Assembly (NCBI RefSeq): GCF_028561755.1
Contig: NZ_JAQQTD010000005.1
Location: 310,001 to 374,000, forward strand
DNA length: 64,000 bases
Source: Altibacter sp. HG106
GTDB taxonomy: Bacteria > Bacteroidota > Bacteroidia > Flavobacteriales > Flavobacteriaceae
Direction of reading: 5' to 3'
A model generated the notes under the pieces. That model did not search any database. It had not been told where the DNA came from and was given only the letters and a program-made list of their open reading frames with translations. Position 1 is the first letter of the stretch. Each line of letters starts with the position of its first letter. Shown here piece by piece: positions 36,933 through 58,373 of this stretch. Made by a program: the position numbers and the translations under genes.

Positions 36933-38360
36933 ATGGGCAAAACTGCGGAATCGGTTTGGAAAAATTGTTTGGCTTTTATTGAAGATAATATAACCTCACA
37001 AGCATACAAGACCTGGTTCGAGCCCATCAAAGCGGTGAAACTTACGGACAACGCGCTAAGCATTCAGGTTCCTAGTAAATTCTTTTACGAGTGGTTGGAA
37101 GAGCACTATGTAAAATTGCTCAAGGTAGCACTCACAAAAGAATTGGGTAAAACAGCTAAATTGGTGTACATCATCAAGATGGAAAACACCTACGGGAACA
37201 AACAACCGTTTACCGAACGCATTCCAAGTGCCGATCGATCTCAAGTCCGTTCCCAAGAAGTAGATGTTCCAGTAAAAAACAAAAGTCCTGAGCTCAAAAA
37301 TCCGTTTGTCATTCCGGGCATCCGAAATGTCAAGATCGAGAGCCAGTTGAACCCCAACTATAATTTCGATAGCTTTCTAGAAGGTGAATCGAATCGTTTG
37401 GCGCGCTCAGCGGGAATGGCGGTTGCCAACAAACCCGGCGGCACCTCCTTTAATCCGCTATTGATTTTTGGCGGAGTGGGTTTAGGAAAAACCCATTTGG
37501 CGCATGCCATTGGCGTTGAGATCAAAGAAAAGTACCCAGAGAAGACGGTATTATATATTTCCGCGGAAAAATTTACACAACAATACATCGAATCGGTTAA
37601 AAAGAACAATCGAAACGATTTTATCCATTTCTATCAAATTATTGATGTTTTGATCGTTGATGACATCCAATTGCTTTCCGGAAAAGCGGGAACACAAGAT
37701 GTATTTTTTCATATTTTCAATCATTTGCATCAAAATGGGAAGCAGGTCATTTTAACCAGTGACAAGGCTCCGGTAGATATGATCGATATTGAACAACGGT
37801 TGCTGTCTCGCTTCAAATGGGGACTATCTGCCGAGCTCAATCACCCAGATTACGATACACGGGTTGCGATTATTAAGAATAAACTCTATCGCGATGGCGT
37901 GGAAATGCCGGAAGATATAATCGAGTTTTTGGCCAATAATATTAAAACCAATATTCGCGAGTTGGAAGGCGCCATCATTTCCTTGATCGCTCACTCTTCG
38001 TTCAACAAAAGAGAAATCACTATTGATCTCGCTAAAAAGATCGTTGACAATTACGTAAAGCACACCAAGCGCGAAGTATCTATCGATTATATTCAAAAAG
38101 TGGTGAGCGAGTATTTCCAAATGGATGTGGAGACGCTACAATCGAAAACTAGAAAACGTCACATCGTTCAAGCACGCCAACTGGCCATGTTTTTTGCAAA
38201 GAAGTTTACCAAGGCGTCCTTAGCTTCTATCGGTTCTCAAATCGGTCAGCGTGACCATGCAACGGTACTTCATGCTTGTAAAACGGTCGACAATCTTTCG
38301 AGTACCGACAAGCAATTCCGGAAATATGTAGAAGACCTCAATAAAAAATTAACCTTATAA
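36933..38360 (+). CDS. dnaA: Chromosomal replication initiator protein DnaA
   Basis: A 475-residue AAA+ protein that opens the replication origin. Domain I (about 1-85, SVWKNCLAFIEDNI) is followed by a variable linker to about residue 140. Domain III has Walker A GGVGLGKTHLAHAIG (180-194), Walker B LIVDDIQLLSGK and the sensor stretch. Domain IV carries the DnaA signature with DHATVLHACKTV. Length is typical. The 204 bases in front are AT-rich with a possible weak -7 box (CATATTTG at 36842-36849) but no cluster of DnaA boxes. A terminator follows. Confidence 0.97.
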   Translation: MGKTAESVWKNCLAFIEDNITSQAYKTWFEPIKAVKLTDNALSIQVPSKFFYEWLEEHYVKLLKVALTKELGKTAKLVYIIKMENTYGNKQPFTERIPSADRSQVRSQEVDVPVKNKSPELKNPFVIPGIRNVKIESQLNPNYNFDSFLEGESNRLARSAGMAVANKPGGTSFNPLLIFGGVGLGKTHLAHAIGVEIKEKYPEKTVLYISAEKFTQQYIESVKKNNRNDFIHFYQIIDVLIVDDIQLLSGKAGTQDVFFHIFNHLHQNGKQVILTSDKAPVDMIDIEQRLLSRFKWGLSAELNHPDYDTRVAIIKNKLYRDGVEMPEDIIEFLANNIKTNIRELEGAIISLIAHSSFNKREITIDLAKKIVDNYVKHTKREVSIDYIQKVVSEYFQMDVETLQSKTRKRHIVQARQLAMFFAKKFTKASLASIGSQIGQRDHATVLHACKTVDNLSSTDKQFRKYVEDLNKKLTL

Positions 38361-54997: not shown

Positions 54998-55004
54998 CCG
55001 CATT

Positions 55005-55096
55005 GCCTGCGTTAGGGATGGCAACGGCATCCAGCCGGGCACGGCTGATATAGTGGACAGCCCGGCGAAGGCGCGAAAAGCGCCATCGCAACGCCC
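55005..55096 (+). ncRNA. Structured RNA element between trmD and rplS
   Basis: About 90 bases with several perfect inverted repeats. An outer stem pairs GCGTT (55009-55013) with AACGC (55090-55094). Inside are three hairpins: GGATG/CATCC (55016-55032), GCCGGGC/GCCCGGC (55034-55066) and GGCGC/GCGCC with a GAAAA loop (55070-55084). A second fold is possible, in which GATGGC (55017-55022) pairs with GCCATC (55082-55087) and breaks the first and third hairpins. It lies upstream of the rplS promoter and so is more likely in the trmD transcript. The GCGTTAGGGAT start and the TGGACAGCCCG block match a repeat I remember from other flavobacterial genomes, perhaps the Flavo-1 motif; I could not check this. 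Confidence 0.6.
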
Positions 55097-55147: not shown

Positions 55148-55216
55148 CATCCGATTTGATTCAACCTCTGGCGAGCATCGTGCACGTTGTTTCGATAAAA
55201 CCATAACAAAACGACC

Positions 55217-55567
55217 ATGGAAGCGTTAGTAAAATTTGTACAAGACGAATTCATCACCAAAAAGGACTTTCCAGAATTCCAAGCCGGAGATAACCTAACA
55301 GTGTATTACGAAATTAAAGAAGGGGCGAAAACCCGTACACAGTTCTTTAAAGGAACCGTGATCCAGATTAAAGGAACGGGAGCCAGCAAAACCTTTACCA
55401 TCCGAAAAATGTCGGGAACGGTAGGTGTAGAGCGAATTTTCCCGATCAATTTGCCAGCCCTTCAAAAAATTGAAGTGAACAAACGAGGTAGCGTACGTAG
55501 AAAACGTATCTACTATTTCCGCGGACTTACCGGTAAAAAAGCCCGTATTCGCGAGAAGAAACAATAA
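55217..55567 (+). CDS. rplS: 50S ribosomal protein L19
   Basis: A 116-residue ribosomal protein. The start ALVKFVQDEF, GDNLTVYYEIKEG and the conserved end GSVRRKRIYYFRGLTGKKARIREKK identify L19, which sits at the interface between the two subunits. It has its own promoter and a terminator directly after, so it is a single-gene unit even though trmD is next to it, the classic pairing. Confidence 0.97.
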   Translation: MEALVKFVQDEFITKKDFPEFQAGDNLTVYYEIKEGAKTRTQFFKGTVIQIKGTGASKTFTIRKMSGTVGVERIFPINLPALQKIEVNKRGSVRRKRIYYFRGLTGKKARIREKKQ

Positions 55568-55588
55568 GCACTTCCTTCATTATTGCAC

Positions 55589-55616
55589 AAGCAGCCCAAC
55601 GGGCTGCTTTTTTTAT
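55589..55616 (+). terminator. Terminator after rplS
   Basis: A 9-base-pair stem (AAGCAGCCC / GGGCTGCTT) with loop AAC, followed by a T-run, 22 bases past the stop. Confidence 0.92.
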
Positions 55617-55673
55617 TCACAAATGTTAATAACTCAGGTTAACAAGATGTTATTATTTAGGAAGTTAGAATCC

Positions 55674-55703
55674 TTGACATTTTAAATTTTTGATCTACAT
55701 TAG
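55674..55703 (+). promoter_or_regulatory. Promoter of the candidate RNA gene
   Basis: TTG (55674-55676), an exact 19-base spacer and TACATTAG (55696-55703) match the Bacteroidota promoter with one mismatch in the -7 box. The rplS terminator upstream and the absence of any large frame downstream suggest it drives an RNA. Confidence 0.65.
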
Positions 55704-55708
55704 CAATA

Positions 55709-56019
55709 TCAAAACGGAATAAACCCCGTAGCGATAAACATAAAGTAACGTTCTTTATACCTTTTGTTAATTCGTTGGACATGCTAACTCGGTAAAAGGA
55801 GTTAGGATGGAGAGTTGAGAAAAGTGTGATTCATACATCACTTCACGACATAGATTGATTTCACATCAATGGTTCGAAAAGAGTATGAATTGGTTGAAAT
55901 AGATCACAACTGCAAGGGTTTAATAAACTTGCTTCGCGTTGTAAAAGACGAGTTGGTAACGATGTATTTCACAAGAAGCCATAATACGTGTTCCACACTG
56001 TATTATGGCTTTTCTTGTT
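55709..56019 (+). ncRNA. Candidate non-coding RNA gene between rplS and icd
   Basis: This is most of the 577-base gap between rplS and icd. It runs from just after a promoter to a strong terminator, about 300 nt. Between them are several perfect hairpins: CTAACTC/GAGTTAG (55784-55805), GTGAT/ATCAC (55826-55841), ATTGAT/ATCAAT (55854-55870) and an imperfect CAAG..TTT/AAAC.TTG (55913-55931). The 5' end is inferred from the promoter and the 3' end from the terminator. The only frame of note, 53 codons at 55869-56030, runs through the terminator and beyond and so is unlikely to be a gene. I do not recognise it as tmRNA, SRP RNA, RNase P RNA or a clear 6S RNA. Confidence 0.5.
55978..56019 (+). terminator. 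Terminator of the candidate RNA gene
   Basis: A perfect 10-base-pair stem (GCCATAATAC / GTATTATGGC) with a 12-base loop is followed by TTTTCTTGTTTTT. No coding gene ends before it, so it must belong to a non-coding transcript or act as an attenuator for icd. Confidence 0.8.
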
Positions 56020-56047
56020 TTTGGCGGTAGCGCATCGCATTCCCTCT

Positions 56048-56077
56048 TTTTTTACGCCTTACAAATCCGTATATTTG
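56048..56077 (+). promoter_or_regulatory. Promoter of icd
   Basis: TTT (56048-56050), a 19-base spacer and an exact -7 box TATATTTG (56070-56077), 68 bases before the icd ATG. It lies downstream of the terminator at 55978-56019, so icd can be transcribed on its own. Confidence 0.65.
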
Positions 56078-56105
56078 CAAGCCTTCAACCTAAATTTCTA
56101 AGGAT

Positions 56106-56141
56106 ATGGAAGGATTATTTTCCAAACCAAATATTGAATAA
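56106..56141 (+). other. Eleven-codon upstream open frame in the icd leader
   Basis: ATG to TAA encodes MEGLFSKPNIE and ends 3 bases before the icd ATG. A purine-rich AAGGAT precedes it. It may be a leader peptide or a way to load ribosomes for icd, or it may be chance. Confidence 0.35.

Positions 56142-58373
<2,232 letters not shown>

Follow-up and report, generated by a model that had tools for sequence, protein, structure and literature searches.

A conserved and probably standalone structured RNA between rplS and icd in Flavobacteriaceae

OLE, ROOL, and GOLLD are large orphan structured noncoding RNAs (ncRNAs) of many helices, whose functions were found late or are unknown. To our knowledge, Bacteroidetes have no clear Hfq-type small RNA (sRNA) system, and few Bacteroidetes RNAs are understood. 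The nearest known work is the catalog of Rfp RNAs of Flavobacterium psychrophilum (PMC9723704), which are independent, noncoding, and strongly folded; one of them, Rfp18, is conserved in other species. The icd and icd-II riboswitch candidates of Proteobacteria are short and form part of the icd leader (PMC8632094). The RNA described here lies between rplS and icd in Altibacter sp. HG106, within a window of 64,000 nucleotides (contig NZ_JAQQTD010000005.1, positions 310,001 to 374,000 of the forward strand). Coordinates given without a contig or locus label are those of the window, and all mapped features of the RNA gene are on its plus strand.

As read directly from the window sequence, the gap between rplS (55217 to 55567) and icd (56145 to 58373) spans 55568 to 56144. 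Its left border is the rplS terminator (55589 to 55616), identified by a terminator scan, which places it at 55589 to 55609, and in the sequence. An operator-like array (55613 to 55657) begins with a degenerate palindrome, TTATTCACAAATGTTAATAA (55613 to 55632), and continues with more GTTnATAA-like half-sites. It is followed by a predicted Bacteroidetes-type sigma-A promoter (55674 to 55703), with a TTG −33 element (TTGACA, 55674 to 55679), a −7 element, TACATTAG (55696 to 55703), and a TTG-to-TA spacing of exactly 19 bases. The predicted RNA, with both ends placed from the promoter and the terminator, comprises about 312 nt (55709 to 56020). Its terminator (55972 to 56022), a hairpin of 55972 to 55987 with 56000 to 56017 and a T tract, escaped a simple terminator scan and was read from the sequence. 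A separate −7 box, TATATTTG, precedes icd at about 56070; together with the rplS terminator, it sets the RNA segment apart from both neighbors. The first-pass annotation had described an RNA gene of about 300 nt at 55674 to 56019 with its own start and stop signals, and the features that it named (the promoter with an exact 19-base spacer, the strong terminator, and the position between the rplS terminator and a separate icd promoter) are all present. The predicted start near 55709 and end near 56020 are probably a small correction to its limits.

Two other RNA elements are seen upstream. The known L19-Flavobacteria ribosomal protein leader precedes rplS (55162 to 55189, 35.8 bits), and a subthreshold match to the Flavo-1 RNA element (55000 to 55071, 30.9 bits with a cutoff of 42) is located in the trmD-rplS gap. 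Full Flavo-1 matches are found in the trmD-rplS gap of locus L007 (702 to 791) and, in L010, elsewhere.

A DNA search of 60 relatives recovered the sister species (96%) and short matches in other genera, several of them between rplS and icd. A 15-base pattern taken from P2, the second hairpin, and sought in 397 genomes of the family matches 105 of them, some by chance according to the control columns; at 79 loci, a check confirmed that rplS lies upstream or icd downstream. A 19-base version, scanned against 84,980 species, yielded at least 118 stretches; among the matches listed, nearly all titles name Flavobacteriaceae or their genera, and the remaining ones name only Bacteroidetes or Bacteroidia, apart from one MAG titled Chlorobiota. 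The merged set consists of 149 distinct motif-bearing RNAs, with rplS upstream in 143. These homologs diverge fast in sequence and length (about 310 to 560 nt) and retain the upstream palindrome, the promoter, the 5′ hairpin, and the terminator. Measured from P2 to the terminator, they fall into length classes of about 260 to 300, 310 to 380, and 410 to 460 nt; the window carries a member of the short class.

Because the 149 RNAs had been found by sequence, 60 rplS gaps without the 15-mer were fetched as a control for selection bias. Profiles of the short and long classes match 38 of these gaps (E < 0.001) and, at the same level, none of 20 loci from other families or from genus g146 and no decoys. 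Thus, the invariance of the 15-mer is partly an artifact of the search. Shared beyond the 15-mer set are the ACGTTC-containing hairpin, the P5 stem, and the terminator. A covariance model, R1, built on the 3′ domain module (55895 to 55971), has matches in 78 of 199 genomes of the family; in an order-wide sample, its matches are confined to Flavobacteriaceae, with none in any other family of the order.

With motif, profile, and covariance model matches pooled, the RNA is found in 90 of 130 Flavobacteriaceae genomes, almost all of them from different genera. The comparison of the rplS-icd gap across the family, suggested in the first-pass annotation, reveals conservation. The proposal of a possible lineage-specific regulator is partly right, insofar as the genomes searched show the RNA in Flavobacteriaceae only, but within that family it is widespread. 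In some genera, the rplS gaps that lost the RNA measure only about 180 to 235 bp. The sampled genomes of g146, a genus with many species that we infer to be Flavobacterium, contain neither the RNA at rplS-icd nor an R1 match, and their rplS-icd gap is 229 to 280 bp where icd follows. Fast divergence, combined with clean loss in some genera, suggests that the RNA is dispensable.

The control region is a common possession of the homologs. A TTG-N18..20-TANNTT arrangement precedes 118 of 147 (exactly 19 bases in 100), compared with 14% of shuffled upstream regions, and upstream of P2, the 147 homologs average 2.3 GTTnATAA half-sites per 170 nt, versus 0.07 after shuffling. The palindrome TTATNAACN4GTTNATAA is present in 0 to 2 copies per genome among 16 whole genomes, in 11 of which one exact copy lies before the RNA; the genome of the window has only the degenerate form, which is not counted among these copies. 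The palindrome accompanies the RNA also where rplS lies elsewhere. Judged by its sequence, the palindromic array between the rplS terminator and the promoter looks like an operator. A second palindrome with half-sites, similarly arranged and far from the RNA, was seen at L328 (G024:C2:1562801); the DNA-binding factor that would recognize the array might act there too. In another genome (G148:C1, about 3511800 to 3512971), a 15-mer match (L042) and a palindrome match (L336) lie 1.2 kb apart, off the real RNA locus; these are probably chance matches, the 15-mer having no terminator.

The segment from 55674 to 56019 folds with a predicted energy of −94.8 kcal/mol, versus −69.0 ± 4.4 for its shuffles (z = −5.87). 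At its 5′ end is P1 (ACGG/CCGT, 55714 to 55717 with 55726 to 55729), a perfect hairpin, represented in the short-class alignment by two helices whose 6 pairs all show change on both sides. P2, likewise perfect, pairs ATAAAG with CTTTAT around the loop TAACGTT (55740 to 55745 with 55753 to 55758), and no other sequence of the RNA is as widely conserved as its ACGTTC core. The covarying helix P3 (55761 to 55773 with 55812 to 55824) closes a variable domain of about 45 nt in the class of the window and about 210 nt in the long class; within it lies P3a (55784 to 55790 with 55799 to 55805), an inner helix that also covaries. A small perfect hairpin, ATTGAT/ATCAAT (55854 to 55870), contains a sole sister-species difference, which preserves the pair. 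The 3′ domain (55895 to 55971) comprises P5 (55895 to 55901 with 55965 to 55971), P6 (55903 to 55905 with 55961 to 55963), P7 (55907 to 55911 with 55951 to 55955), the P8 hairpin GCAAG-GGTTTAATAAA-CTTGC (55912 to 55932), and P9 (55937 to 55950); in the short-class alignment, its helices are paired in 90 to 100% of cells, and of the two helices of the terminator hairpin, one is paired in 98.5%. Of the four small hairpins listed initially, three as perfect, P1 and P2 are indeed perfect, but the helices exceed four, a long-range stem and a three-way junction being present as well.

Comparative analysis agrees with this fold. The short-class alignment contains 75 pairs, which are kept in 89.9% of cells, and 51 of them are changed on both sides. 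None of 500 shuffles attains any of five measures, and pairing falls to 39 to 46% when the partners are slid. Circularity was avoided by deriving the structures from half of the alignment rows and counting pairs in the other half. In the held-out rows, 87 to 91% of the short-class cells are paired (38 to 46% slid), as are 91% of the long-class cells (40 to 45% slid), with 359 to 376 double-change cells in the long class versus 63 to 93 slid; a third class of 16 relatives reaches 85% (41 to 47% slid). The covariation expected of an RNA gene is seen as strong compensatory change in these held-out sequences. The middle length class (330 to 380 nt) aligned poorly and shows little covariation by itself. 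The short, long, and third classes have a common plan of P1, P2, P3 around the variable domain, P5, and the terminator. The sister species shows 11 differences, 4 of them in helices (55800, 55817, 55858, and 56002), and by hand assignment all 4 preserve a standard pair.

Searches with Rfam 15 at the gathering threshold show no family over the RNA of the window or over its relatives from several classes, and relaxed thresholds give only chance-level matches, none of which covers the RNA convincingly. Three of the four known RNAs that the first-pass annotation could not recognize here by their motifs are encoded at other loci of the genome: 6S-Flavo RNA (RF01685) at C25:17124-17231 (109 bits) and RNase P RNA (RF00010) at C25:53831 (190 bits), neither with a match at the RNA, and tmRNA (RF00023) at C24:81840, with none detected by ARAGORN in the window. 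The same annotation saw no plausible protein, and a small protein is indeed rejected: open reading frames (ORFs) of at least 25 amino acids are common to at most 14 of the 149 homologs, and no ORF is conserved. A search for phage DNA returned none. No prior report of the RNA was found in the open-access literature, subscription papers and most preprints being outside the scope of that search.

With its own promoter and terminator, conserved structure, and no conserved ORF, the RNA has the characters of a standalone bacterial ncRNA. The view of it as a standalone RNA gene is upheld by the syntenic homologs, the conserved promoter and terminator, the compensatory change in held-out sequences, the absence of an Rfam match, and the location of 6S, RNase P, and tmRNA genes at other loci, and this is very probably a real, undescribed structured RNA family of the standalone type. 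Its anatomy is visible in sequence, homology, covarying structure, the lack of conserved coding, and its independence of neighbors; transcription, action in trans, and protein binding are our extrapolation from these. The main reading, to which we assign a probability of about 0.6, is that the gene would be transcribed from its own promoter and that its product would act in trans by its fold, most likely binding a protein. RNA polymerase would start at the sigma-A promoter behind the operator-like array and produce a transcript of about 312 nt that ends at its own terminator. Selection would keep the helices, the 5′ hairpin with its ACGUUC core, and the 3′ multihelix junction. Sequence would drift meanwhile, and the P3 domain would change even in size. 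The RNA might serve as a scaffold, as a sequestering RNA, or as the core of a ribonucleoprotein (RNP), rather than offering one long antisense stretch. No protein partner was found; the only candidate family tested, TROVE, is absent from the genome of the window and present in 1 of 130 genomes, and a Y RNA system, which needs the Ro60 (TROVE) protein, was rejected.

The alternative that survives best, a possible but improbable one, is a trans-acting antisense sRNA, in which the unpaired P2 and P8 loops would pair with several mRNAs and the rest would be a scaffold for stability. The promoter and terminator and the conserved loop sequences would suit a base-pairing sRNA too. However, no long unpaired stretch is conserved across the classes, the P2 loop differs between them, and the structural constraint falls on the whole molecule and not on a single seed. 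The adjoining mRNA starts do not appear to be targets either, as pairing of the RNA with the start regions of icd and rplS is at chance (mean z of −0.12 and −0.25, respectively). A structured regulator that binds a protein would fit the pattern of constraint better than a simple antisense sRNA, and it is the reading that we favor.

A broader proposal, which we regard as rather doubtful, is that the RNA represents a new large structured class. Its members, present in the majority of the Flavobacteriaceae genera sampled, would form the core of an RNP or a self-assembled RNA; they would combine a conserved frame with a modular domain (about 45 to 210 nt) inserted into it and have an upstream operator array of their own. 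Far less probable is a catalytic or multimeric RNA in the manner of the self-assembling large structured ncRNAs. The size of the long class, the many covarying helices, the GNRA-capped hairpins, and a pseudoknot that the P2 loop (CGUU) might form with the invariant AACG at 55958 to 55961 would agree with it, but there is no catalytic motif and no Rfam match, and the pseudoknot, suggestive by eye, was not confirmed by a regular-expression script. In homologs that were not selected by the search pattern, the palindromic AACGUU loop varies, which argues against loop-loop dimerization as a general feature; its apparent invariance is partly due to that selection.

Still less likely, and largely refuted, is a role in cis, as a leader or attenuator of icd or as a 3′ element of rplS. 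In most genomes, the RNA does lie between rplS and icd on the same strand, and riboswitch candidates associated with icd exist in Proteobacteria (PMC8632094), but a conserved terminator closes the RNA and a separate −7 box precedes icd, so that the RNA would not be continuous with the icd mRNA. Nor is adjacency constant. In some genomes, genes intervene between the RNA and icd, e.g., a pentapeptide-repeat gene in L007, with the RNA still beside rplS. In six others (L341 to L346, from G143, G127, G149, G129, G183, and G126), which the covariance model flagged away from rplS, the RNA is found upstream of icd, complete with palindrome and promoter, and rplS lies elsewhere; there, the gene that precedes it encodes a protein whose start is carboxypeptidase-regulatory-like. 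What is observed is INDEPENDENCE from the neighbors: neither rplS nor icd is obligatory. The occurrence of the RNA with icd in the absence of rplS, or with rplS but no adjacent icd, makes a cis leader less likely and action in trans more so. Finally, the idea of a chromosome origin at this locus, with the RNA as an origin-linked transcript, raised by the DnaA-box-like repeats upstream of the RNA (TTATTCACA at 55613) and by a dnaA gene, named from sequence, 18 kb away (36933 to 38360), can practically be dismissed, because over 149 loci, plus-strand genes have a 4-fold-site GC skew of −0.178 on the left side and −0.197 on the right, a complete genome shows no switch in strand composition at the locus, and a strict search detects no strong DnaA-box cluster there.

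This structured RNA has its own control region and no database entry, and about 70% of the genera sampled from a dominant marine family keep it. It is a direct target for genetics and for RNP pull-down, the alignments and the covariance model permit its immediate annotation, and its fast-changing architecture offers a test case for the evolution of large RNAs.

Among known systems, 6S-Flavo RNA is also a structured, free-standing RNA of Flavobacteria but has 108 positions and another locus; RNase P RNA and tmRNA, of similar size and with similarly complex folds, are encoded at other loci of the same genome. The icd and icd-II candidates are likewise near icd; in contrast to them, the RNA terminates before icd and persists where genes intervene. 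Rfp18 and the other Rfp RNAs come from the same bacterial family and are likewise noncoding and strongly folded, set beside the RNA here by description only; g146, the presumed Flavobacterium, is without the RNA at rplS-icd. OLE, ROOL, and GOLLD differ from it in size and host range, and none of them matches it in Rfam, but they resemble it in being large and multihelical, with a conserved fold.
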